A stretch of DNA of 64,000 bases, taken from Hyphomicrobiales bacterium (lineage in GTDB: Bacteria > Pseudomonadota > Alphaproteobacteria > Rhizobiales > Rhizobiaceae). The notes under the pieces are model-generated. The model was not told the origin of the DNA. It ran no database searches and saw only the letters and a program-made list of their open reading frames with translations. Positions 1 to 12,456 of the stretch are shown in pieces. Made by a program: the position numbers and the translations under genes. Numbering within the stretch: the first letter of the stretch is position 1; each line of letters starts with the position of its first letter. The stretch covers positions 62,001 to 126,000 of the forward strand of contig UCKM01000006.1 in assembly GCA_900473175.1 (NCBI GenBank), written 5' to 3'.

Positions 1-734
1 GGTTGGCCGAAGGCAATCTCGGCGAGGACGTCTGGAGCCGGCGTCCGGTGCTGACAATAATCTTCGAAGTGCTGCCCTATACGGTCACGCTGGCGCTTGC
101 GAGCTTTCTATGGGCCGTGACCCTCGGCATTTTCCTTGGTTGCCTCGCTGTGGTTCACCATGGACGCTGGCCTGACTGGCTGATTGGTCTTCTGTCCGTC
201 GGCTTCGTCGCCGTCCCTTCATTTGTCGTCGCGCTTTATTCGCTGCTGATCTTTGCGGTGAGCCTCAACTGGCTGCCGGCAATCGGAGCCGGAGCACCGG
301 GAGATATTGTCGGACAGTTGAAAGCCCTCGTCCTTCCCTCTTTTGCTATCGGGCTCGGCTGGGTTGGCTATGTTGCCCGGCTTGTGCGCGCCGCCATGAT
401 CGAAGCGATGGGCGAGAATTATACGCGTACCCTCCGCTCGTTCGGGGTATCCGAGCGCCGCATTATTTACCGCTATGCGCTGCGGCAGGCGCTGTTGGCT
501 GTTCTTTCGGTCATTGCGATCGGGTTCGGCGGGTTGCTCACCGGATCGGTGTTCGCCGAGATCGTGTTTTCGCGTCCTGGCCTCGGCAAGATGACCTATG
601 ACGCTGTCATGTCGCGCAACTACCCGCTGGTTATGGGGACAGTGCTCGTTACGTCGGCCCTCTATGTTACGTGCATGATCATTGCCGATGTGATTACAGC
701 CTGGATCGATCCCCGCGTCAGGAGCGCGCTCTGA
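1..734 (+). CDS. Oligopeptide/nickel-type ABC transporter permease (DppB-like), 5' end outside window
   Basis: Inner-membrane permease of a family-5 (Dpp/Opp/Nik) importer. The frame is already open at the left edge, so only about 243 residues are present of the roughly 310-330 usual for DppB; the N-terminal helix and part of the first periplasmic loop are missing. Five hydrophobic segments are visible, near residues 23-51, 60-94, 109-130, 166-190 and 210-235 of the visible part. The EAA-type ATPase-docking loop is clear between the third and fourth (sequence AMIEAMGENYTRTLRSFG). The C-terminus ends in the DPRVR motif common to DppB. It is followed after 1 nt by the partner permease. The substrate cannot be read from the permease; the downstream MttB-family enzyme hints at a methylated amine. 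Confidence 0.9.
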   Translation, partial: LAEGNLGEDVWSRRPVLTIIFEVLPYTVTLALASFLWAVTLGIFLGCLAVVHHGRWPDWLIGLLSVGFVAVPSFVVALYSLLIFAVSLNWLPAIGAGAPGDIVGQLKALVLPSFAIGLGWVGYVARLVRAAMIEAMGENYTRTLRSFGVSERRIIYRYALRQALLAVLSVIAIGFGGLLTGSVFAEIVFSRPGLGKMTYDAVMSRNYPLVMGTVLVTSALYVTCMIIADVITAWIDPRVRSAL

Positions 735-735
735 C

Positions 736-1647
736 ATGGTGGTCATGGAGATCAACACCGGTACCAGCATCCGCAACCCCGTCGAACCCGGATTTTTGCG
801 CCGTGCCGGCCGCGTTGCAAGCCAGGTATTCTTCACGCCCCTCGGCGGCATCGGTTGCACGCTGGTGTTGCTGATTTTGGTCATCGCCCTGTTCGCGCCA
901 GCGCTCGCGCCCTATAGTCCAACCGCAATCAACGTCAAGGAACGCCTCGCAGATCCCTCACTTCACCATCTGCTTGGGACTGATCAACTCGGTCGCGATC
1001 TTCTTTCCCGCGTGATGGTCGGGACGCAGACGGCGATGATGGTGGCAATGTCTGCTCTATCGATCGCCCTCCTTGCAGCCTTGCCGCTCGGCCTGATCGC
1101 GGGCTACGGGCCACGCTGGCTGGATGCCTGTCTGATCCTGGTCTTCGACAGCCTGAGTTCGCTACCGATGATCATGCTCGGGCTTGCCATCGTGGTGCTG
1201 CTTGGGCCCGGCATTCCGACAGTTATCCTCGTAATCGTTATCTATTCGGTACCGAGCTATGCGCGCCTTGTGCGCACGCAGACACTCAGCCTCAAATCCC
1301 GCGATTTCATCAAGGCGGAGCAGGCAATGAATGCGAGCACGCCACGCATTCTTTTCGGCCATTTGCTGCCCAATGTCATCGGGCCGCTGCTCATCCTCGC
1401 CTGTCTCGATATCTCGACCGTCATTACGCTGGAGGCTGGCCTTTCCTTCCTTGGTCTCGGCGTCAAACCGCAGGTGCCGAGTTGGGGGAACATCTTGAGC
1501 GACGGCTTTTCCGTCATTCGCTCCACAGCCCTTCCCGTAATCGCCGGTGGCGTACCTCTCATCCTTGCGACAATCGGCTTTACCTTCTTCGGTGAGGCCC
1601 TGCGTGACGCGCTTGATCCGAAGTTGGCACGGGAGCGCAAGCCATGA
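736..1647 (+). CDS. Oligopeptide/nickel-type ABC transporter permease (DppC-like)
   Basis: Second permease subunit of the family-5 importer, 303 residues, normal length for DppC. An N-terminal helix (about residues 34-56) is followed by a periplasmic stretch with the DppC signature HHLLGTDQLGRDLLSRV, where the LGTDxxGRD motif is diagnostic. The transport domain follows, with the EAA loop around KAEQAMNASTPRILFGHLLPN. The C-terminus has the GxxxFGEALRDALDPK ending typical of the family. The start at 736 lies 1 nt after the preceding stop; an in-frame ATG three codons later is an alternative. It overlaps the first ATPase gene by 4 nt, indicating translational coupling. Confidence 0.94.
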   Translation: MVVMEINTGTSIRNPVEPGFLRRAGRVASQVFFTPLGGIGCTLVLLILVIALFAPALAPYSPTAINVKERLADPSLHHLLGTDQLGRDLLSRVMVGTQTAMMVAMSALSIALLAALPLGLIAGYGPRWLDACLILVFDSLSSLPMIMLGLAIVVLLGPGIPTVILVIVIYSVPSYARLVRTQTLSLKSRDFIKAEQAMNASTPRILFGHLLPNVIGPLLILACLDISTVITLEAGLSFLGLGVKPQVPSWGNILSDGFSVIRSTALPVIAGGVPLILATIGFTFFGEALRDALDPKLARERKP

Positions 1648-2627
1648 CGGATCAAATGCCGGTCACATCCCCTGTCCTCGAAATGCGCGATGTTTCGATC
1701 AGCTACAGCGGCATCATTCCCGCTGTCACCGGCGTTGACCTGCTGGTAAGACCCGGCGAGATCGTCGGCATCATCGGCGAAAGCGGCTCCGGCAAATCAA
1801 CCTTGGCCCAGTCGATCCTTGGCCTCCTGCCGGAGACGGTTAAAATCTCGGGTCAGAAGCTGGCGCTGAGCGGCGTCGATCTCCTGGCTGCTTCAGATTC
1901 GACCTTGAGAAATTTGCGCGGTCCCGCCGCCGCAATGATCTTCCAGAATCCGATGACGACGTTCAGCCCCCTGCACACGCTCGGTCGTCAACTCATGGAT
2001 TTGCTCTGGCGGGAACGGCACCTGTCAACATTGGAAAAGCGCCAGATGATTCTTGTGGCGCTGCAGGATGTCGGGCTTCCCGATCCGGCCGCCCGGCTGG
2101 AGGCTTATCCGTTCCAGCTCTCCGGCGGCATGCTGCAGCGCGTCGCCATCGCCGCAGCCCTGCTCATGCGCCCGTCGTTGCTCGTCGCCGACGAACCGAC
2201 CACCGCACTCGATGTAACGATGGAAGCACAGATTCTCCACCTCATGCGCGAAATTCGCAACAAGGCAGGCGTTTCAATCCTGATGATTTCCCACCATCTC
2301 GGCGTGATTGCCGAGCTTTGCGACCGGGTCGCCGTGATGTATGCCGGCCGCATCGTCGAGGAGGGGCCCGTGGAGACGATCTTCGCCGATCCCCGCCATC
2401 CCTATACGAAAGCGCTTTTCGCCTGCGAGCCGGCGCTGATCAGCGATACAGCGATGAGGCTTCCGGTTATCGGTGGTGAGGTGCCAAGGCCCGTTGACGT
2501 GGGCTGCGGCTTTGCCGGGCGCTGCTCGCAGGTGCTGGACTGCTGCAGCGTCCTTAGTCCTCCCTGGGTGGCTGTCCACAACACCGACGCACCCCATCTA
2601 TCCCGCTGCCATCGGAGCGCACCATGA
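1644..2627 (+). CDS. Oligopeptide-type ABC transporter ATPase (DppD-like)
   Basis: Cytoplasmic ATPase, 327 residues. Walker A GESGSGKST is at 45-53, the Q-loop at Q101, the signature LSGGM at 159-163, Walker B with catalytic glutamate at E184 and the H-loop histidine near 217, so it should be catalytically complete. The C-terminal oligopeptide/dipeptide-transporter domain contains clustered cysteines (GCGFAGRCSQVLDC and a final SRCH) of the kind that binds an iron-sulphur cluster in some DppD/DppF proteins. It overlaps both neighbours by 4 nt. It would pair with the next gene product to drive the permease pair. Confidence 0.95.
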   Translation: MTDQMPVTSPVLEMRDVSISYSGIIPAVTGVDLLVRPGEIVGIIGESGSGKSTLAQSILGLLPETVKISGQKLALSGVDLLAASDSTLRNLRGPAAAMIFQNPMTTFSPLHTLGRQLMDLLWRERHLSTLEKRQMILVALQDVGLPDPAARLEAYPFQLSGGMLQRVAIAAALLMRPSLLVADEPTTALDVTMEAQILHLMREIRNKAGVSILMISHHLGVIAELCDRVAVMYAGRIVEEGPVETIFADPRHPYTKALFACEPALISDTAMRLPVIGGEVPRPVDVGCGFAGRCSQVLDCCSVLSPPWVAVHNTDAPHLSRCHRSAP

Positions 2628-3655
2628 CAGCCGGGACGGCCTTGATCGAAGCCAACAACCTTTCGGTTTCCGTGCCGGGATCCGGGCGGTGGTCACTTGC
2701 CAGAAAACCACCTGTCGACATTCTCATCGATGTTTCCGTCGCGGTCCGCCCCGGCGAGATCGTCTGTATGGTCGGTGAAAGCGGGTCAGGAAAGACGACC
2801 TTCGGACGGTCGCTTCTCGGACTGGTCAAACCGTCCGCTGGCCAGATCGTGCTCGACGGCACGCCGCTTCCTGATTTTACCCAGCGCAGCTTCCGCCGGA
2901 TCAGGCGCGAGGCGTCCATGCTGTTTCAGGAGCCGGTTACCTCGTTCGATCCGAGGCAGCGCATCGGATCGATCATTGCCGAACCCCGGCGGATCGCCGG
3001 CTCTGGAAGCCTGCGGAATGAAGATATCGTGGAATTGGCCCGAAAGGCGGACCTCGCCGAGCCCTTGCTGTCGCATTTTCCCCATGCGTTGAGTGGTGGC
3101 CAGGCAAGGCGGGCCGCTGTGGCGCGGTCGCTTTCGGTTGTGCCGCGATTGATCGTTGCCGACGAACCGACGGCGGGCCTCGACGTTTCGGTACAGGGAG
3201 GCGTGCTCAACCTGTTCCTCGACATACGCGAGGAGTTTCAGACAGCATTCCTGCTGATTACGCATAACCTCTCCATCGCCCGGCATGTATCGGATCGAAT
3301 TGTCATCCTTTACCTCGGCCGCGTCCTCGAAAGCGGACCGGCACGCGAGATTTTCCGCGCCCCGCGCCATCCCTACACCCGCGCGCTTCTCGATTCCGAA
3401 CCGGTACCCGATCCCACGAAGCGTCGCACCGCCCCGCCAGTCATCGGCGAGGTGCCAAGCCTCACGGCGAGGCCGAGCGGCTGCGAATTCCACACGCGCT
3501 GCGGTTTCGTGCAGGACAGATGCCGGCACGAGCGGCCCGTTCAATCCACCATTTCGGCGGACCATCAGGTCGCGTGCCACTTTCCACTTTCGCCAAGGCT
3601 GACGGTCGTCGATCAGGGTCCGCGGCTCGTGCCAAGGGCGGCGAATAGAAAATGA
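2624..3655 (+). CDS. Oligopeptide-type ABC transporter ATPase (DppF-like)
   Basis: Second ATPase of the importer, 343 residues. Walker A GESGSGKTT is at 51-59, LSGGQ at 156-160, the Walker B glutamate at E181, and the H-loop follows in LLITHN. The C-terminal domain again has the family cysteine pattern (GCEFHTRC, then C and a final ACHF), so both ATPases keep the putative cluster-binding cysteines. The start ATG overlaps the previous stop by 4 nt. The gene order permease-permease-ATPase-ATPase-binding protein differs from E. coli dpp, where the binding protein is first, but is frequent in rhizobia. Confidence 0.95.
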   Translation: MTAGTALIEANNLSVSVPGSGRWSLARKPPVDILIDVSVAVRPGEIVCMVGESGSGKTTFGRSLLGLVKPSAGQIVLDGTPLPDFTQRSFRRIRREASMLFQEPVTSFDPRQRIGSIIAEPRRIAGSGSLRNEDIVELARKADLAEPLLSHFPHALSGGQARRAAVARSLSVVPRLIVADEPTAGLDVSVQGGVLNLFLDIREEFQTAFLLITHNLSIARHVSDRIVILYLGRVLESGPAREIFRAPRHPYTRALLDSEPVPDPTKRRTAPPVIGEVPSLTARPSGCEFHTRCGFVQDRCRHERPVQSTISADHQVACHFPLSPRLTVVDQGPRLVPRAANRK

Positions 3656-3686
3656 ACAAACAAAAACAACCAGAGGGATCAGAACA

Positions 3687-5246
3687 ATGAATGCAGTCAC
3701 ACTCAACAGACGGCACTTTCTGCTAGGTGCTGCCGCCGGCATGTCGGCGCTGGCCATGCGCCCGGGGCTCTCTTATGCGGTGGAAGGCGACACGCTGGTA
3801 GTGCGCGGCGCCTCCGACATCGAAATCCTCGACCCGGCCTTCCAGAACGGATTGATGGAGGAAGAGATTGGCCGTTGCCTGTTCGTCTCATTGAATCGAC
3901 TTGATGATGTGCGCAACGGGGCAGCCAATTGGACGCTCTACGGGGCGAGCGAACTCAACCAGAAATCACCAACCGAGATCGAGTTCAAGCTGAACGACTG
4001 GCTCGAGTGGACGGGCGATTTTGGGCCGGTCACGGCGGAGGACGTCAAGTTCTCGTTCGAACGCGTCGCTGATCCGGCCAACAAATCCGCCTGGGCCTAT
4101 GCCTTCGACGCACTGGACAAGGTGGAAGTCACCGGAGACCGCTCAGGCATCATTCACCTGAAGTCGCCATCAGCACCCTTCTGGGTTACGACCTTGCCCT
4201 ACTACATGGGCCACATCGTCTGCAAGAAGGCAGTCGAGGCTGCTGGCGGCAAGTTTACGACCGAAGTACCCGCCAGCTCCGGGCCCTATATTATTGAGAA
4301 GTGGGTGCCCAAGCAGAACATCACGCTGGCGCCCAATCCGAAATGGAAGGGTCCGGCCCCGACTTTTCCGAAAATCCGCTTCGAGATCGTAACTGATGAC
4401 GATTCCGCCGCGCTTGCCTATGAATCGAAATCATTGCAGTACACCAAGATTAGCCTCAATACCCTTGCCAACTACCGCGAGAAACTGCCAGCCGACACGC
4501 AGCTTATCCAGATGGACGGCAATCGCTTCGTTTGGTTGACGATCAATCTGGGCAACCCGAAGTTCGCCGACGAAAAGGTGCGCCGGGCCCTTCAATATGC
4601 GCTCGACGTCAACCAGGTCATGGACGGGTCCTATTCGGGTCTCGCCGCTCCCGCGACCGGCGTCGTGCCGCCGACAATGAATGGTCACCGGGAAGCCATC
4701 CTCTATCCGGCCGACGCCGCCAAGGCGCAATCGCTCCTTGAAGAAGCCGGCGTTACCGATCTCAAGATCGAACTCGCCTCGCAGAACGACAAAACCAGCC
4801 AATTGACCTGCCAGATCGTCCAGGCACTTCTGGGTGCCATTGGCGTGACGGTAGACATCAAGACCTATGATGATGGCGTCTACTGGACGCTAGGCGACAA
4901 GAGTTCGGGGGATACGTGGAAGACGCTCGACATGGTACTGATGAGCTTTGCCGGCGGCGTCGACCCCTCAGAAAATCTCACCTGGTTCAGGCCGTCACAG
5001 ATCGGCGTCTACAACTGGTCGCAATTCGACAGTCCCGAATTCGAACAGCTTTATCAGGATGGCATGAAGGAGACCGACAAGACGAAACGCGGCGAAATCT
5101 ACAGGAAGATGCAGGATATCATGGAGCAATCCGGAGGCTTCATTTTTCTCACCCACGAAACGTTTGCGGCGGTTGCCCGCAATGGCCTCAAGCCGTGCAT
5201 CATGGCCGATGGTTATCTTGACGTAACGCGGTTCAACAAAAGCTGA
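3687..5246 (+). CDS. Family-5 ABC transporter substrate-binding protein, Tat-exported
   Basis: Periplasmic binding protein of the DppA/OppA/NikA class, 519 residues, near the usual 500-540. The N-terminus has a twin-arginine signal (NRRHFLLGAAAG) with a cleavage-like region around PGLSYA at residues 26-31, so it is probably exported folded through Tat. The mature part has the SBP_bac_5 hallmarks, including TAEDVKFSFERV near 113 and the long lobe II ending in a QDIMEQSGGFIF region. It lies 31 nt after the second ATPase and 41 nt before the MttB-like gene, so all six are probably one transcript. Ligand unknown; inferred from the neighbour it could be a betaine-like or other N-methylated compound rather than a peptide. 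Confidence 0.93.
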   Translation: MNAVTLNRRHFLLGAAAGMSALAMRPGLSYAVEGDTLVVRGASDIEILDPAFQNGLMEEEIGRCLFVSLNRLDDVRNGAANWTLYGASELNQKSPTEIEFKLNDWLEWTGDFGPVTAEDVKFSFERVADPANKSAWAYAFDALDKVEVTGDRSGIIHLKSPSAPFWVTTLPYYMGHIVCKKAVEAAGGKFTTEVPASSGPYIIEKWVPKQNITLAPNPKWKGPAPTFPKIRFEIVTDDDSAALAYESKSLQYTKISLNTLANYREKLPADTQLIQMDGNRFVWLTINLGNPKFADEKVRRALQYALDVNQVMDGSYSGLAAPATGVVPPTMNGHREAILYPADAAKAQSLLEEAGVTDLKIELASQNDKTSQLTCQIVQALLGAIGVTVDIKTYDDGVYWTLGDKSSGDTWKTLDMVLMSFAGGVDPSENLTWFRPSQIGVYNWSQFDSPEFEQLYQDGMKETDKTKRGEIYRKMQDIMEQSGGFIFLTHETFAAVARNGLKPCIMADGYLDVTRFNKS

Positions 5247-5287
5247 GAAACGCAGCCCTGCGGGGCGAAAGTGGGAAGGAGGCCGTC

Positions 5288-6820
5288 ATGGCCCGGAACA
5301 TGTTGAACAGGCGCGAACGCCGGCTTGCGACAGTGGGGACGGTACGGCAAATGCCATTTGGCAATGTCGTCAATCGTTATACACCGATTGCAATCATGAG
5401 CGCCGATGAAATCGAATCCATTCACCTGGCTTCGCTTCGGCTGCTCGCCGAGATCGGCATCGAGGTCTTGCACGAGGAGAGCCGGAGCCTCTTAAAGAGC
5501 GCCGGGGCGGAGGTCGATGCCAGCAATCTGCGCGTGCGCTTCGATCCTTCCATGGTTGAAGAGAAGATAAGAACGGCACCTTCCCGCTTCACCTTGCAAG
5601 CCCGCAATCCGGCACGCAACCTGACTGTGGGCGACGGCAGCCTGATCTTCGCCTCGACCGGAGGTCCGGCCTTCGTCCATGATATGGATCGCGGCCGGCG
5701 AGCCGGCAATTATGCTGACATGTGTGACTATATCCGGGTTGTTCACCAGCTCAACGTCATCCACCAGGAAGGCGGATGTCCATGCGAGCCGACGGACCTT
5801 CAACCCGATTCACGCCATCTCGATTTCTATCATGCGGCGATCCGGCTGACTGACAAGAACTGGCAATGCTGGGCCTTGGGCGGCTACCGGGTTGAGGACG
5901 CGATCGAAATGCTTTCGATCACGCTCGGACAGACGCGCGAGCAGCTGCGGGAAAATCCTGCGACCCTGACCATCATCAATTCCAACTCGCCCCTGCGGCT
6001 CGATGTTCCGATGGGGGAAGGTCTCTGCGCCATGTCGCGCGCGGGCCAGCCGATCGCGCTGACGCCCTTCACCCTTTCAGGCGCCATGAGTCCGGTCACC
6101 ATCGCCGGCGCGCTGACGCAGCAGAATGCGGAAGCCTTGGCGCTGATCACACTGGCGCAGGTCGTATCGCCCGGAGCGCCGGTCCTTTATGGAGGGTTCA
6201 CCTCGAACGTCGACATGCGCACCGGCTCGCCAGCCTTCGGGACCCCCGAATACGCCAAGGCGCAGATCGCGTCGGGCCAGCTCGCCCGCCGCTACAACAT
6301 TCCGTTCCGCTCTTCGAATGTCACGGCATCGAACGCCGTCGACGTGCAGGCGGCCTATGAGAGCGGCATGTCGCTGTGGAGCACGATCATGGGCGGCGTG
6401 AGCCTGATCGAACATGCCGCGGGATGGCTCGAGGGCGGATTGACCGCTTCGTTCGAAAAGCTGATCCTCGACGCGGAGATGCTGCAGATGATGCGCAGCT
6501 TCCTCGAACCGGTTCGGGTCGATGAAGACAGTCTCGCAGTCGATACGATCAGCGAGGTTGGCCCTGGCGGGCATTTCTTCGGCACGGGTCATACACTTGC
6601 CCGCTTCGAGAATGCCTTTTACGAGCCTATGTTGTCTGATTGGCGGAATTTCGAGAACTGGTCGGAAAGCGGCGCACGCAGCGGCACCGATCGCGCCAAT
6701 GCCATCTGGAAAGACCTGCTCCGGACCTACGAACAACCGCCGCTGGATCCCGGTATCGATGAAGCCCTGTCAGAATATGTGGCGCGCCGGAAGGAGGAGA
6801 TTCATCCGGGTCGGGACTGA
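5288..6820 (+). CDS. Trimethylamine/betaine methyltransferase family protein (MttB superfamily, non-pyrrolysine)
   Basis: A 510-residue member of the MttB superfamily, whose characterised members transfer a methyl group from trimethylamine or glycine betaine to a corrinoid protein. The family core is visible: the N-terminal helix region SADEIESIHLASLRLLAEIG, a central TIM-barrel with LTPFTLSGAMSPVTIAGAL, then GSPAFGTPEYAKAQ and the late VGPGGHFFGTGHT motif. The frame runs through without an in-frame TAG, so it is not a pyrrolysine enzyme and is closer in kind to the MtgB-type betaine enzymes. A good ribosome site (GGAAGGAGG) precedes the ATG. No corrinoid protein or corrinoid-activating ATPase gene is in the window. 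Substrate unknown. Confidence 0.88.
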   Translation: MARNMLNRRERRLATVGTVRQMPFGNVVNRYTPIAIMSADEIESIHLASLRLLAEIGIEVLHEESRSLLKSAGAEVDASNLRVRFDPSMVEEKIRTAPSRFTLQARNPARNLTVGDGSLIFASTGGPAFVHDMDRGRRAGNYADMCDYIRVVHQLNVIHQEGGCPCEPTDLQPDSRHLDFYHAAIRLTDKNWQCWALGGYRVEDAIEMLSITLGQTREQLRENPATLTIINSNSPLRLDVPMGEGLCAMSRAGQPIALTPFTLSGAMSPVTIAGALTQQNAEALALITLAQVVSPGAPVLYGGFTSNVDMRTGSPAFGTPEYAKAQIASGQLARRYNIPFRSSNVTASNAVDVQAAYESGMSLWSTIMGGVSLIEHAAGWLEGGLTASFEKLILDAEMLQMMRSFLEPVRVDEDSLAVDTISEVGPGGHFFGTGHTLARFENAFYEPMLSDWRNFENWSESGARSGTDRANAIWKDLLRTYEQPPLDPGIDEALSEYVARRKEEIHPGRD

Positions 6821-6851
6821 AGGTAGGCCTGTGGAATAGTCCAAAAAACGA

Positions 6852-6873
6852 AACGCGCTCCGAGGAGCGCGTT
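6852..6873. terminator. Perfect GC-rich hairpin after the MttB-like gene
   Basis: AACGCGCTCC and GGAGCGCGTT form a 10-bp inverted repeat separated by 2 nt, 31 nt after the stop codon. No T-run follows on the plus strand, but an A6 run sits just upstream (6843-6848), so the canonical hairpin-plus-U-tract would be read on the minus strand, where no gene enters from the right. It probably ends the upstream operon through the stem alone. Confidence 0.6.
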
Positions 6874-7210
6874 ATAGATGGGCTTTCGCCAGTGTTCTTG
6901 AAATTCTTCTCAAAGACGCCCTGTCAATCCACAGTGCTAAGCCCATATTCTAACGCATCATTCTAAAGAATTTCGGCTCAGGTCCCCCACTGTTGTTCGC
7001 TCGCTGCGCATGCTTGAATGCTTTTTTGTTTTCGTCATGTTCTGCTTGCGATCATGGGATGAAATTATGTTACCCACCGTTACGTCAGCGTGACTCAAAC
7101 CCGATTTCTGGGGCGCTTTTCACCCCTTTTCATAAATTTTTCTTCCCAACCGAATCCCGGCGTTTGACGCTGATGATTTCGTCTGGATATCGTCGAGCGG
7201 TTCCTGGAAA
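6874..7210. other. Intergenic region, no gene recognised
   Basis: About 340 bp, AT-richer than the flanks, between the MttB-like operon and the alpha/beta hydrolase. Short open frames here lack a ribosome site and any recognisable protein pattern. It must contain the promoter of the hydrolase, but I could not pick a convincing -35/-10 pair. Confidence 0.5.
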
Positions 7211-7867
7211 ATGGCAGAGGCTGACATGGTAGCGAGATTTCTTTTCAATGGCGAGGACGATGCACCAATCACGATTCTCCTTGCGCACGGGGCAGGCGCG
7301 CCGATGGATTCTGCATCGATGGAAGCGATTGCCAAAGCGCTCGCCGCGGCCGGTTTTCGCGTTGCCCGCTTCGAGTTCGGCTATATGGCCGCCAGACGCA
7401 CATCCGTAGGCCGCAAGCCGCCGCCCCGCGCCGAAAAACTCGGTCCGGAATATAGGACGGCAATCGAGGAACTCGGAGCAGTCGGCCTGCTCATCATTGG
7501 CGGCAAGTCGATGGGCGGGCGAGTGGCCAGCATGATCGCCGACGATCTCCATGCCGCAGGGAAAATTTCGGGGCTGCTTTGCCTCGGCTATCCGTTTCAC
7601 CCACCCGCCAAGCCGGAGCAGCTGCGAACAAAGCATCTCGCCAATCTCACGACGCCGGCGATGATTTGCCAGGGAACGCGCGATGAGTTTGGCACGAAAG
7701 ACGACGTCTCGGGTTATGCGCTTTCAGACAGTATCAGGATCGTCTGGCTCGAAGACGGTGATCACGACCTCAAACCCCGAAAAAGCGTTTCAGGGTTCTC
7801 AGCCGCCGATCACCTCAAAACCGTGGCCGACGCCGTCAGGGCGTGGGCCGAAGCGCTGGAGCGTTGA
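7211..7867 (+). CDS. Alpha/beta-hydrolase of the KANL3/Tex30 (COG3571) type
   Basis: Predicted cytoplasmic serine hydrolase, 218 residues. The alpha/beta fold order is visible: the HGAGAPMDS oxyanion loop near 26-34, the nucleophile elbow GGKSMGG with Ser100, the acid in GTRDEFG (Asp158) and the histidine in DGDHDL (His185). The FEFGYMAARR stretch between strand 4 and the elbow is typical of this subfamily. The substrate is unknown. The start is uncertain: ATG 7226 (MVARF) has a better-spaced AGAGG than ATG 7211. Convergent to the next gene with only 27 nt between stops. No signal peptide. Confidence 0.88.
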   Translation: MAEADMVARFLFNGEDDAPITILLAHGAGAPMDSASMEAIAKALAAAGFRVARFEFGYMAARRTSVGRKPPPRAEKLGPEYRTAIEELGAVGLLIIGGKSMGGRVASMIADDLHAAGKISGLLCLGYPFHPPAKPEQLRTKHLANLTTPAMICQGTRDEFGTKDDVSGYALSDSIRIVWLEDGDHDLKPRKSVSGFSAADHLKTVADAVRAWAEALER

Positions 7868-7894
7868 TACGACGATCGCGCCGCGATCTCGTTG

Positions 7895-10800
7895 TCAACC
7901 GTCCTTGCACTCATTCGGCCTCGTATGCTTCGGTTCGAGTTCGATCTCGATGTGGATGCGGCGCAGGCGATCGGTATCATCGCAAGGATCATCGTCGCAG
8001 CATTGGTCATGGTTCTCATCCTTCTCACAAGCATCGTCGTGATGGTGGTGATAATGATCGTGACAGCAACAGCAATGTGACGGCGGGCAGCATCGATCAT
8101 CGACGCAAGGTTCGCAGCAACAGTGCTGCGTCGCAGGCTCACAGCAGTCGTGCGGCGATGGGTGGTGCTTGCAGGGGTGTTTGCCATGTTCGTGCGAAGC
8201 GCTGATATTCGTGTCCGGCTCGAAGCTGAGCCCCCCGACCACGATCCCGTTGGCAAGCACCAGGATTGTGATGGTCACATCACCGGCGTCGGCAATTTCG
8301 CCGGCACTGAAGTCCCGGCCACTGATGAGCACTGGCCGGACCTCGCGGGCATCCCGCGGACCAAGCGTAAACGTTCCGCCGCCAGGATTGTTGAACGACA
8401 TCGCCCATCCGCGTGATTCCCAGAACTGCGGGAATACGGCACGAATTTCCATGCGGGCGGTTTTCGCAAACGGGTTCTGCGCCCAGAACTTGCGATTGCA
8501 GAACGCGGCTTCCAGCGCGCAACGCCCACCCGCGCCGGGAACCGGAATGAGCGCCCGCATCGCGATATTGTTATCCGACGGCACGAGACGCCATACCGGG
8601 GTTGGCCCCTTGGCCGCAGGCAGGCCGGTGATGAGATCGCTGTTCGCCCGGTCTCCTCTCGTGCTGACGCTCGCGAACATGCATTCATCGAATGGATGCA
8701 CCGGCATCCATTCGAACGGCCCGACCACCACCTCGCCGCCTGGCGCAATATTGGGGATGGCAAGCGAAGCGGTGGTCATAGGTTCGAAATCGTCCGGCCA
8801 CACCAGCCCGGCGCTCGGCCGGCAGTGATAGGCACTTACCCGTCCGCCCCTAGAGGCATGGGTGCCGCGGTTCTTCACGCGCACATAGGCGTAGTTCTTC
8901 CGGCAAACCAGCGGCGTCTGGTGCCAGCCGCCGCCATCGGGTTCGTGGCGATTCCAGATATCGCTGGTTTCCCAGAACTTGGCGAGGAATGGATATTCGC
9001 CATGACGGCCGTCATCGATATAGAGGTCGACCGGAGGCGGGGCACCTTCGGAGACGACAGGGATCGGCGCACCAAGCGGCTGGTAGAGGCCCTGCTTCTC
9101 GAAGGCCCAGCGTACCACCTTCCAGTATACCCCACCGACTTGATCCTCGCTGGTCCAGTTACCACGCTCGGCGGCAATCATCGCGCTGGCATAACTACCG
9201 GGATTGCTGGGATTGGTAGGCTGCGTGAGCGAACCTACCGTGCGCAGGATGAGGTAGGCCACATACCGCGCCGCGTATTGGCGCCCAGCAATTTCCCCTG
9301 AGTCGCCGCCGATTGATCGATATAAGCGGAAGTGTGTCGTGCAGAGTATCTGCTCGGAGTCGTAACCCCCATTGTCGTTGACGCCATCCCACGCCCAGCC
9401 TGTGGTCACATCACGGTCGTGACGGCGATTGATTATGCTATAGACCCACGGAAAGGTCTGGAAGCGATCGGCCGCGTTCGTCTCCGGGTCGTTGAGAATG
9501 GCTGCGAAACTGTCGCCAGCGCTGTGCGAAAAGCCGAAGTTCGCTGAATTGACGTGATTATACAGGATGCCATGGCCGCCCAGCTCGTGCAGAACCACAC
9601 GCCAGTCGCAGGCGAGGCCCATCGGATTGCCAATATCGGTGAGGTCGGCCAGCATGAACGCGGTGCGCCCGATGCCGAACGTACCGTTGCCCATGCAATA
9701 GGCGTTAATCTCTATGCCTGTCGCGGTGCCAAAGTGGCCACGGTGATCGACTGTGCTTGGAAAGAGTGTCCCGGTGAAATAGGTCGGTAGATCGAAGCCG
9801 AGATCTTCTACCAGTTCGAAAAAGCGGTTGCAGTGATAGTAAGCGTTCACCGCGGCGAAATTGTCAGTGCGCGCGGCGTAATCGAAGGCTGAGCCGGCTG
9901 CCACCGTGGGTGGCGCTGTGTTCGGCACTTCGACATCGGTGACCCGCACGTGATCGCCGGTCAGTGCGAAGATACCGGCCACGGGCGGCGCCACGTCCCC
10001 AAGCAGCACCGACGTTCGCAATGCGTTCAGTGCGGCAGCGCCGGCATTGGGTAGAGGCCCGCCATTGCCTGTCACCGGGTCCTCTTTGAATACAAGGCCA
10101 GTCACATCGTCGATGAAGGCGCGCAAGTAAAGGACAGCCAGCGTTTCGACCTCGATCAGCGCCACCCACGGCAAGTCTTCGATGCCGCCGCAGGTCAGCT
10201 TGAAAGTGACTTCCACCACCACGTAGTGATGGCCTTCCCGTATATCATCGTCGACCGGCGGCAGCGGCAACATGGGATGCGGGAACGGCCGTTGCACGCC
10301 TCCCAACTCGCTCTGTTGTGCATTTGGCGATGGAACGTCGGCGGGGGCAAGGCGTTGCTTCGCGCTGTAGCGGTAAATCATCAACCGCTGCTTGAGTATG
10401 GTCAGTGACTTCACATCACAGTCCTTGGTGTCGGTGATCCTGAGCAACCGGGCCAGCGTGCCAGCGTCGATTTTGCGGCTACCTTGCAACGCCTTTTTGC
10501 CCGGCATCGTCGCGGTGACAGCAACGTGCCGGCTCGATTGGGCACTCAGGACGACGAAGGGTTTTTGCTGCATGTGAACCGAGACGCCCGCTTGCCAGAT
10601 GGGCAGACCCAAGTAGGTTTGGTCAAACACGACCGTGGTCATGTCGAATTGGGGCTTCTCCTGGTTGAACCGATATTCGATGCCGATTTCCCGCGGCGTA
10701 TCCTCGGCACCCAGGCTGAAGTTGGCGAGTTCCGCGGTTTCAATACCCAGCACCGCACCGTACTTTTCAAGATATTCACGCGCCGCCAGTACCGCAGTCC

Positions 10801-10906
10801 CCGCCTTGCTTTCAAAAGGTTCCTCGGTATGCAGGAGGTCTCTAACAGTGCCTTCCGCATCGCGTGTGACATATGCCTTGGATTTGGAATCAAATTCTTC
10901 AGACAT
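7895..10906 (-). CDS. Large metalloprotease-like protein with FTP-type propeptide and Cys/His-rich C-terminus
   Basis: A 1003-residue protein I place near the thermolysin/fungalysin gluzincins. The start ATG 10906 has a GGGGAGAG ribosome site; an in-frame start 25 codons upstream lacks one. The region around residues 50-150 resembles a fungalysin/thermolysin propeptide (QTYLGLPIWQAGVSVH). A protease-like core follows, with HELGGH at 440-445 and, 15 residues on, HSAGDSFAAI (461-470). Its spacing is HExxxH, not the canonical HExxH. Beta-rich segments follow. The last 99 residues (905-1003) contain, by my count, 18 Cys and 17 His, with runs such as CCCCHDHYHHHH and acidic patches, ending in a short charged tail. 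No classical signal peptide is visible. Activity is inferred; it could be an inactive relative or a metal-binding protein. Confidence 0.8.
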   Translation of the reverse strand: MSEEFDSKSKAYVTRDAEGTVRDLLHTEEPFESKAGTAVLAAREYLEKYGAVLGIETAELANFSLGAEDTPREIGIEYRFNQEKPQFDMTTVVFDQTYLGLPIWQAGVSVHMQQKPFVVLSAQSSRHVAVTATMPGKKALQGSRKIDAGTLARLLRITDTKDCDVKSLTILKQRLMIYRYSAKQRLAPADVPSPNAQQSELGGVQRPFPHPMLPLPPVDDDIREGHHYVVVEVTFKLTCGGIEDLPWVALIEVETLAVLYLRAFIDDVTGLVFKEDPVTGNGGPLPNAGAAALNALRTSVLLGDVAPPVAGIFALTGDHVRVTDVEVPNTAPPTVAAGSAFDYAARTDNFAAVNAYYHCNRFFELVEDLGFDLPTYFTGTLFPSTVDHRGHFGTATGIEINAYCMGNGTFGIGRTAFMLADLTDIGNPMGLACDWRVVLHELGGHGILYNHVNSANFGFSHSAGDSFAAILNDPETNAADRFQTFPWVYSIINRRHDRDVTTGWAWDGVNDNGGYDSEQILCTTHFRLYRSIGGDSGEIAGRQYAARYVAYLILRTVGSLTQPTNPSNPGSYASAMIAAERGNWTSEDQVGGVYWKVVRWAFEKQGLYQPLGAPIPVVSEGAPPPVDLYIDDGRHGEYPFLAKFWETSDIWNRHEPDGGGWHQTPLVCRKNYAYVRVKNRGTHASRGGRVSAYHCRPSAGLVWPDDFEPMTTASLAIPNIAPGGEVVVGPFEWMPVHPFDECMFASVSTRGDRANSDLITGLPAAKGPTPVWRLVPSDNNIAMRALIPVPGAGGRCALEAAFCNRKFWAQNPFAKTARMEIRAVFPQFWESRGWAMSFNNPGGGTFTLGPRDAREVRPVLISGRDFSAGEIADAGDVTITILVLANGIVVGGLSFEPDTNISASHEHGKHPCKHHPSPHDCCEPATQHCCCEPCVDDRCCPPSHCCCCHDHYHHHHDDACEKDENHDQCCDDDPCDDTDRLRRIHIEIELEPKHTRPNECKDG

Positions 10907-10954
10907 GATGAACTCTCCCCCTGATGTGACAAGACGTTGATGCGTATTGCGCAT

Positions 10955-10992
10955 GTGCCGCCAGGCCATAAAGATCGGCAAACTGGCGGCAC
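10955..10992. promoter_or_regulatory. 10-bp perfect inverted repeat upstream of the Cys/His-rich protein
   Basis: GTGCCGCCAG (10955-10964) and CTGGCGGCAC (10983-10992) are exact reverse complements separated by 18 nt, about 49 nt upstream of the start codon at 10906. It could be a 5'-leader stem-loop or an operator for a two-fold symmetric regulator. No regulator gene adjoins it. Confidence 0.5.
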
Positions 10993-11397
10993 CCTGATCA
11001 GATGCGCGGCATTATCTCGACGAAAATCGAACCGAGGCTCGTCCGGCGTGCCATTGAAGGTGCGATAGTTATCTGCGGAGGCTGCACGCTTGACGCTAAA
11101 AGCATTCAAACGGCCGGCATTGCCGCATCGTGCGGCGGTACGTCAATCAAGAATTAAGCTGCCGAAGCATTCGACAATTCGTCATGAGATTTTCGAACGA
11201 AGGGTGCAGCTCAAGGTCGCCCCATTGGCTGCCAAGCAAACATCCCCACGTTTGCCTTTCGGGATCAATCGATCGATTACGACTAATCTCTTCTGGTTAT
11301 CAGTGTACCAGAGTATCCGTCTTCAGACTACAGGTTTTGACACTTTCGCAGGACAGGTGCTCTGACGCAGGCCGCACTATCATTCCGGCCCTGCCCG
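10993..11397. other. Intergenic region, no gene recognised
   Basis: About 405 bp between the metalloprotease-like gene and the LacI gene stop. It holds a 12-bp palindrome AATCGATCGATT (11267-11278) and a small dyad TCTGGT/ACCAGA (11292-11312), but no open frame with protein-like composition or a ribosome site. The promoter of the metalloprotease-like gene should lie at its left end. Confidence 0.45.
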
Positions 11398-12456
11398 CTA
11401 TTCGATATCCTTGATCGCGTCGAGCGGACCCTGTAGCGCGGTACGCGGCGGCACAAGTTCCGGCTGGACGACGTGGGTGCGGATAGCCGGCCGGCTCTCC
11501 GACATGAGATCGAAGGCCTTGGTGATCATCCCGTCAACGTCCTGGCGGATCATGATCACAGGGAACGGCAGGAACGACCCGAAAGGATCATAGTCATAAC
11601 AGCCCACGACGATATCTGCGAACATCTCGTTCGGGTGATGCGCCATGAACCGCAACAGCCCCTCGAAGTTGATGGATGAATTGACGAACAGGCCGCGCGG
11701 CAATCTTCCTTCGCGTTCGTAAAATTGCTCGAAAGCAGTTTGCGCCGTTCTTGGCGAATAACCGGTCGGAACGATGCACCGGTCGGCATCTCCATCCATC
11801 AACTCGCGCTTGATGGCACGAAATCCGCGGATGCGTTCACGGCTTGCGTGATCGTCACGCCCACCGAAGAGATAAAGATCATCGGCCTGGAGCGGGTCAT
11901 CGGCATTGAAATGCCGGACAATCGCCTCCGTAAGCAGACGTCCGCCCTGATAATTGTCGCTGATCACGGATGGCGCCTTCGTGCCCGGCAGATCGATATT
12001 GACGAGTTTGATGCCCGATCCCGCGCAAACCTCATAGACGCCATCCGGATCGGTGGCGCCGGCCACGATCAGTTCGTCGATGGAGTAGGCGATCAACTGC
12101 TCGACGGTTTGTCGTTCCTCCTCCGGGTCGCGGCACGCACTGACGACGATGGGGCATTGGCCACGGCCGCGCACATGGGCTTCGAACGTCTGGGCCATCG
12201 ACGAAAAATAGCGGTTGTCGTGAACGGGCAAGAGCAAGGCAACCAGCCCGGATCGAGAGCTGCGCAAGCCGCGCGCCTGGAGATTGGCTGTATACTGGTG
12301 TTCCTCCGCCAGACCGCGGATTAGCTTGGCCGTGCTCTCCTTGATCCGGCGCTTTTGCCACGTGCCGTTCAGCACGGCGCTTACCGTCGACGGCGAACTG
12401 CCGGAAAGGACCGACAGATCATAGATTGTCGCCTTCTTCTTCTGTCGATTTTCCAT
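11398..12456 (-). CDS. LacI-family transcriptional regulator of the adjacent sugar operon
   Basis: A 352-residue LacI/GalR repressor. The N-terminal helix-turn-helix is ATIYDLSVLSGSSPSTVSAVLNG, with a hinge around LQARGLRSSRSGLVALLLP, then a periplasmic-binding-protein-like effector domain to the C-terminus. The ATG has a strong GAGGAG ribosome site. It is divergent from the sugar ABC operon starting at 12690, and two dyad sequences lie between them. By the usual logic of the family it represses that operon until the transported sugar or a catabolite binds. The insertion LNGTWQKRRIKES after the recognition helix is longer than in LacI itself. Confidence 0.9.
   Translation of the reverse strand: MENRQKKKATIYDLSVLSGSSPSTVSAVLNGTWQKRRIKESTAKLIRGLAEEHQYTANLQARGLRSSRSGLVALLLPVHDNRYFSSMAQTFEAHVRGRGQCPIVVSACRDPEEERQTVEQLIAYSIDELIVAGATDPDGVYEVCAGSGIKLVNIDLPGTKAPSVISDNYQGGRLLTEAIVRHFNADDPLQADDLYLFGGRDDHASRERIRGFRAIKRELMDGDADRCIVPTGYSPRTAQTAFEQFYEREGRLPRGLFVNSSINFEGLLRFMAHHPNEMFADIVVGCYDYDPFGSFLPFPVIMIRQDVDGMITKAFDLMSESRPAIRTHVVQPELVPPRTALQGPLDAIKDIE

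Follow-up and report, generated by a model that had tools for sequence, protein, structure and literature searches.

What does a C-terminus that is extremely rich in cysteine and histidine do on a 1003-residue protein with a peptidase-like body, and is it a genuine part of that protein? The question arises from a gene within a window of 64,000 nucleotides (the whole stretch of DNA that was analysed) from a soil bacterium with a genome of 4.88 Mb in 45 contigs. The original prediction had pointed to this C-terminus and had counted correctly, as the last 99 residues contain 18 Cys and 17 His. The gene and the relevant parts of its tail are located as follows:

7895..10906, minus strand: whole gene, 1003 residues with ATG start, from the reading of the open reading frame and the similar N-termini of relatives
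7898..8221, minus strand: tail rich in Cys, His and Asp, residues 896-1003 (18 Cys, 17 His), recognised by composition
8090..8116, minus strand: CEPCVDDRC, the conserved core of the tail, residues 931-939, shared with relatives and recovered by pattern search
7934..7966, minus strand: LRRIHIEIELE, residues 981-991, with a weak likeness to the ends of Paracoccus-type tails

The gene and its Cys-rich tail

The frame has its stop at 7895 and its ATG at 10906 of the minus strand, and a TTG further upstream would give a protein of 1028 residues. In favour of the ATG as start are a GGGGGAG stretch directly 5' of it and the similar N-termini of relatives (MTQEFD, MNQQFD, MTQEFN, MSQEFN). Inspection by eye showed neither a signal peptide nor a hydrophobic N-terminus in the window protein or in five relatives (L003, L002, L033, L007 and L011), which rules out the Sec route and no other. 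For three sequences, AlphaFold2 reached a mean pLDDT of 29.9, and the model was kept out of every inference.

Besides Cys and His, the last 99 residues hold 15 Asp, 9 Glu (24 acidic residues together) and 10 Pro, and they include CCCCHDHYHHHH, while the remaining 904 residues have 11 Cys and 22 His. When all stop-free 60-residue stretches in the six frames of the 64-kb window were scanned in steps of 20 residues, Cys and His together peaked at 28 in the tail, versus 13 in the best non-overlapping stretch. Since there is no tandem repeat with a score of at least 30 in the DNA from 7700 to 8400, and since the codon usage of the tail is mixed (13 TGC and 5 TGT for Cys, 11 CAC and 6 CAT for His), an expansion of triplet repeats is ruled out as its origin. 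The tail DNA also had no match among plasmid sequences.

The original prediction had looked to homologues for the fate of the tail, and there its two components part company. The core CEPC[VI]D[DE]RC is present in six of the 13 family C-termini that were read (window, L003, L019, L020, L033, L035), which come from the window, from a Methylibium MAG (L003) and from the Rhizobacter group; the corresponding tails are HCCCEPCVDDRCCPP in the window protein, RCCCEPCIDDRCCPP in L019, PCRCEPCIDERCRPC in L003 and CCEPCIDDRCCPP in L020, L033 and L035. L019 and L002 come from the same Rhizobacter MAG, and L019, located where a contig ends, is very likely the missing end of the L002 protein. Eight other family tails, those with the core included, have only 0-3 His each, and His runs are seen in the window copy only. 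The conserved feature of the tail is thus the Cys core and not the His runs. A second type of tail, found in four of the 13 C-termini (L007, L034, L022, L024), has the motifs LL[DE]CL and S[ILV]DIE[LM] and a terminal Cys. The resemblance of LRRIHIEIELE to these Paracoccus-type ends is weak, with scores that were reached by 11-28 of 2000 shuffles, as compared to 99 of 2000 for L008 and 1116 of 2000 for the L011 control. L011 combines the same body with a Lys-rich tail without Cys, and in L008 the tail is charged and no Cys follows the last domain; the family can therefore dispense with a Cys tail. A relative from the same bacterial family (L004:168-3650) has a different, Gly/Cys-rich end that follows Ig-like domains, which are HYDIN/DUF1573-like.

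In a search of nine genomes, the core pattern occurred once each in seven and the reversed-pattern control in none. As six of the seven occurrences are inside the peptidase-like gene, a role of the core as a shared tag on other proteins was rejected for these nine genomes. The seventh (G1448; left part of L047) belongs to a 74-base tail stretch without body that is 90.5% identical to L019 and ends at a run of N; its two adjoining ORFs, which resemble yciH and a rhomboid gene, are also found near the gene end in G1046, another genome of the Rhizobacter group, and the stretch may be a lost gene copy or an assembly break. Two other gene copies (L021/L024 and L035/L036) are split over two frames, by sequencing errors or because the genes are decaying.

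To what extent the tail is under selection can be read from the ratios of nonsynonymous to synonymous substitution rates (dN/dS), which were calculated according to Nei and Gojobori with our own script for the tail and for the 104 codons that precede it. The values for tail versus preceding codons were 0.14 versus 0.11 for L020-L033, 0.134 versus 0.099 for L020-L035 and 0.154 versus 0.212 for L033-L035, L035 being part of a gene that is split over two frames, and they were 0.188 versus 0.215 for L019-L035 and 0.241 versus 0.241 for L019-L033. Purifying selection therefore acts on the tail among the three Rhizobacter-group copies (L020, L033, L035). For pairs with the window copy, in which synonymous sites are near saturation, we obtained 0.282 versus 0.115 (L019), 0.264 versus 0.123 (L035) and 0.448 versus 0.324 (L003), and the window tail outside the core has diverged faster than the window body. 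With an aligner that itself favours the matching of Cys, identity in Cys columns versus other columns was 11/12 versus 46/53 (L020-L033), 12/12 versus 47/53 (L020-L035), 11/12 versus 44/53 (L033-L035), 8/11 versus 33/46 (both L019-L035 and L019-L020), 12/17 versus 17/52 (window-L019), 8/13 versus 12/39 (window-L003) and 8/11 versus 13/37 (window-L033); Cys is better kept than the other columns in the far pairs, and about equally kept in the two L019 pairs. Both the Cys core, which relatives in distant bacteria keep, and the dN/dS values mark the tail as a genuine part of the protein that is under selection in the Rhizobacter group. The initially considered frameshift artefact, or a frame that is not read past residue 900, is contradicted by the conservation of the core and the dN/dS values of the tail, as far as sequences can tell.

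A peptidase-like body with an enlarged zinc motif

The N-terminal and central parts of the protein raise the question of which kind of enzyme carries this tail. The features of the body are:

10571..10642, minus strand: weak match to the fungalysin/thermolysin propeptide FTP (PF07504), residues 89-112
9572..9589, minus strand: HELGGH (HExxxH), putative zinc-binding and catalytic motif, residues 440-445, from alignment
9512..9526, minus strand: HSAGD, with putative roles of His461 as third ligand and of Asp465 as supporting residue, residues 461-465, from alignment
8222..9031, minus strand: CARDB-like region, about residues 626-895 (boundaries estimated), with a partial S8 subtilase match

No Pfam or NCBIfam family matched the body above cut-off, and the catalytic-domain models PF01447 and PF02128 matched neither the window protein (E<=1) nor 11 family members (E<=0.1). 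The PF07504 match of the window protein is sub-threshold (E 0.014; 15.7 bits versus a cut-off of 21), and FTP was matched at E<=0.1 by seven of the 11 members. A profile comparison with hhalign, in which the 11 family sequences were set against only two M4-type sequences and diversity was low, gave 99.5% over residues 18-538; these two references, L014 and L015, match FTP and M4 above and M36 below cut-off. The comparison pairs HELGGHG with HELGHG, leaving one residue in excess, and HSAGD with the EGTGD of a SEGTGD stretch. The thermolysin/fungalysin likeness that had been proposed originally thus stands at the level of hhalign profiles only, whereas it does not extend to the zinc motif, which is HExxxH, nor to the third-ligand Glu, which is replaced by His. 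By its sequence characteristics, the body differs from standard thermolysins and fungalysins and belongs to a rare, unnamed family that is distantly related to the M4/M36 gluzincins.

H440, E441, H445, H461, S462, G464 and D465 are invariant in the 11 rows of the family alignment, and the invariant His440, Glu441, His445, His461 and Asp465 would fit a working metal site. The 16 members whose zinc motif was read have either HExxxH (11/16) or HEFGH, i.e. HExxH (5/16), and all 16 have HS.GD, with His at the position where the alignment would place the third-ligand Glu. A tree built without the extra motif residue groups the five HExxH members in one clade (98/96), while leaving six of its 15 inner branches open; a single insertion likely lies behind the difference between the two motifs, and the direction of this change rests on the distant outgroup, which reads HELGH. 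A Cys-bearing tail is found in ten of the 11 HExxxH members (the exception is L011) versus none of the five HExxH members, with L002 counted via L019 and L021 via L024, both on separate pieces, and with four of the HExxH members (L005, L006, L013, L023) ending earlier than the tail and the fifth, L008, having no Cys after its last domain. As the five HExxH members form one clade, this association of tail and motif is not an independent one.

In the C-terminal region, profile positions 658-862 match the S8 subtilase L012, and CARDB was matched below cut-off, with E 0.043 on L008 and 0.0051 on L012. Part of the S8 subtilase (L012:1-2463) is related to the family's C-terminal region, which therefore may be a module common to two kinds of proteases. 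A search of solved structures gave three matches with E 0.25-0.69, which we took as chance, and a second search gave none; no chain of the solved DPP III was among the PDB matches to the window protein.

Distribution, origin and neighbourhood

The peptidase-like gene is rare among the genomes sampled. Within the genus, only the own genome of 20 has it. In overlapping samples of larger groups, matches were obtained in four of 297 genomes of the family (the own genome, G104, and G241 and G181 with distant HExxH members), three of 397 of the order (own, G651, and G359, which has only an S8 subtilase with the shared C-terminal region), two of 385 of the class (own and G791), four of 398 of the phylum (own, the distant G791, and G978 and G1044 with the M4-type outgroup) and six of 399 of the family of a Rhizobacter MAG (including the distant G1189 and a C-terminal fragment in G1439). 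In the genus of the Rhizobacter MAG, five of 11 genomes matched. Contig searches found a copy in a Rhizobacter MAG (71%), which breaks off ahead of the tail, and a complete one in a Methylibium MAG (66%); among plasmids, the matches were Paracoccus sp. AK26 (40%) and Mesorhizobium onobrychidis (38%). As the Methylibium and Rhizobacter copies are nearest to the window copy on the tree, a gene transfer between alpha- and betaproteobacteria is likely, although this fork of the tree is open. A phage or viral origin was rejected: phages gave no match, and of 32 pattern matches in viral contigs none was confirmed.

The gene is flanked on one side by an alpha/beta hydrolase gene (7211-7867, PF20408) and on the other by the gene of a LacI-type regulator, which is accompanied by its sugar ABC operon, and an MttB-type methyltransferase gene (PF06253) is at 5288-6820. 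The LacI gene is present in nine of 19 genomes of the genus, own included, and seven of the eight other flanks were compared. In all seven, DNA similarity starts at 11393-11405, i.e. at the LacI gene end, and the left 11 kb of the window are absent from the ~10 kb taken beside the LacI gene, which fits the idea that the left part of the window is an accessory segment. Positions 1-11393 hold an ABC transporter, the MttB-type methyltransferase, the hydrolase and the peptidase-like gene.

No recurrent operon partner was found among the best 120 neighbour pairs, as shared neighbours were seen only in L026, L037 and L039, and the few neighbourhoods viewed show no recurring gene for metal handling. 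The operon negative is weak, since neighbouring ORFs came from a simple gene caller that often chooses the wrong strand in GC-rich loci, and since the Pfam scan covered only ten neighbouring ORFs. In the Paracoccus record (L007), the next annotated gene to the peptidase-like copy encodes an RTX-type protein with calcium-binding repeats (PF00353, L007:3955-5304), and a heavy-metal P-type ATPase gene follows it, two genes away from the peptidase-like copy.

Possible functions of the tail and comparison with known systems

The sequence divides the protein into an N-terminus with weak propeptide likeness, a catalytic region bearing HExxxH and HSxGD, a C-terminal region of CARDB-like type and a tail that has the conserved Cys core. 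The likeliest reading, to which we give about even confidence, is that of a leaderless, probably active metallopeptidase with a flexible SlyD-like tail that would bind soft metals and serve as metal store or loader; a disulfide-linked or anchoring tail ranks next, and a redox or metal switch thereafter. Metal binding by the tail as such is probable, judged by its composition. Mechanistically, the body would hold one zinc (or copper) via His440, His445 and His461, with Glu441 as base, and the tail would use its thiolates and imidazoles to collect Zn, Cu or Ni inside the reducing cytoplasm, in the manner of SlyD and its His/Cys tail. The metal held by the tail might then load the catalytic site, be buffered, or switch the activity, and the His/Asp runs of the window copy may widen the range or capacity for metals.

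How else could the tail be explained? It could be an extracellular tail that is linked by disulfides or serves as an anchor, with the protein being exported by a non-Sec route and the cysteines crosslinking it to itself or to the surface, which we consider possible but rather unlikely. FTP-type proteases are usually secreted, both sequence types of the tail end in Cys-rich stretches, and the betaproteobacterial tails are Pro-rich. The neighbour of the Paracoccus copy is an RTX-type protein, a calcium-binding kind that usually leaves the cell independently of a Sec signal, which makes export conceivable. Export would turn the tail cysteines into disulfides, which would count against soft-metal binding. 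However, no leader is seen by eye in six proteins (which bears on the Sec route only), the neighbourhoods viewed contain no recognisable secretion operon (a weak negative), and the acidic His runs of the window copy fit metal binding better. Lower in probability is a tail that senses redox state or metal and thereby switches the peptidase, such that reduced thiols would hold zinc, oxidised thiols would release it, and activity would change. The closely spaced and conserved cysteines of the core would suit such a switch, and so would the lowering of E. coli SlyD activity by Ni binding to its tail, as described in PMC7840056, but the tail differs between subfamilies.

A functionless low-complexity extension that drifts freely is improbable. 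The length and composition of the tail do vary widely, with His runs in the window copy alone and with L011 and L008 lacking tail Cys, and tail dN/dS reaches up to 0.28 (L019), 0.26 (L035) and 0.45 (L003) in the near-saturated window pairs. Yet the Cys core is common to alpha- and betaproteobacteria, the three close pairs have tail dN/dS values of 0.13-0.15 and two pairs with L019 have 0.19-0.24, and the core pattern recurs singly in seven of nine genomes at a reversed-pattern background of zero. Conservation and dN/dS thus largely refute free drift for the Cys core, and the His runs are not covered by this argument. Least probable of all is a RiPP-like peptide substrate that becomes post-translationally modified. 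Cys-rich precursor peptides are short and Cys-dense, and the tail is short, Cys-dense and C-terminal as well, but no modifying enzyme recurs beside the gene in the neighbourhoods compared, which is a weak negative. Methyltransferase-domain genes are located near two copies (L027 and L037), an observation that touches on this possibility.

Should the tail supply or control the enzyme's metal, as the metal store or loader reading implies, the protein would be a peptidase that carries its own metal store. In addition, natural HExxH and HExxxH members within one family make the effect of one residue on metal choice testable. Such a one-residue change of the zinc motif has reportedly been engineered in thermolysin by Menach and others in 2013. 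It has been engineered also in DPP III, where the Cu(II) enzyme is fully active with HExxxH and loses activity with Cu when the motif is cut to HExxH, according to PMC3268031. On this basis one may speculate that the gain of HExxxH in a thermolysin-like fold, together with an own thiolate/imidazole tail for metal loading, yielded a copper-tolerant or copper-using peptidase with a metallothionein-like arm, which we regard as doubtful, more so than the redox or metal switch. The combination of such a tail with an HExxxH peptidase-like body was absent from the Pfam and NCBIfam scans of the window protein and its relatives and was not found among the literature matches listed from open-licence papers; the string HELGGH was not found in such papers, and the listed matches for CCEPC look unrelated by title.

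How does the protein compare to known systems? With M4 thermolysins and M36 fungalysins it shares a profile match over propeptide and catalytic region and the same order of HE..H and ..GD, but it differs in the one extra residue of its motif (HELGGH instead of HExxH), in having His461 for the third-ligand Glu (on alignment), in the lack of a catalytic-domain Pfam match and in showing no signal peptide by eye. The HExxxH motif is known from DPP III (PMC3268031) and the tubulin carboxypeptidase TMCP1 (PMC10499314), and the window protein shares this motif with the M49 peptidase DPP III and with TMCP1. In DPP III, the third ligand is a Glu 52 residues further on, as stated in PMC3268031, whereas the window protein has a His 15 residues after the motif. 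The tail, for which metal binding is predicted here, is closest to the metal-binding extensions of SlyD and HspA, which PMC7840056 and PMC7055735 describe: E. coli SlyD has a C-terminal extension with 13 His and 6 Cys that binds up to 7 Ni, and HspA of H. pylori has a His/Cys-rich extension. As in the window protein, these C-terminal extensions are unstructured, rich in His, Cys, Asp and Glu, and variable between homologues, but the window tail has 17 His and 18 Cys and a conserved Cys core. In H. pylori SlyD, the C-terminal domain is dispensable for the role in nickel uptake, again according to PMC7840056, and such metal tails can therefore be dispensable. The bodies are clearly distinct, as SlyD and HspA are an FKBP isomerase and a GroES co-chaperonin, respectively, whereas the window protein is peptidase-like and has neither domain. 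The type of tail is known in principle; its placement on an HExxxH peptidase-like body together with a conserved Cys core was seen neither in the family libraries scanned nor among the papers listed.
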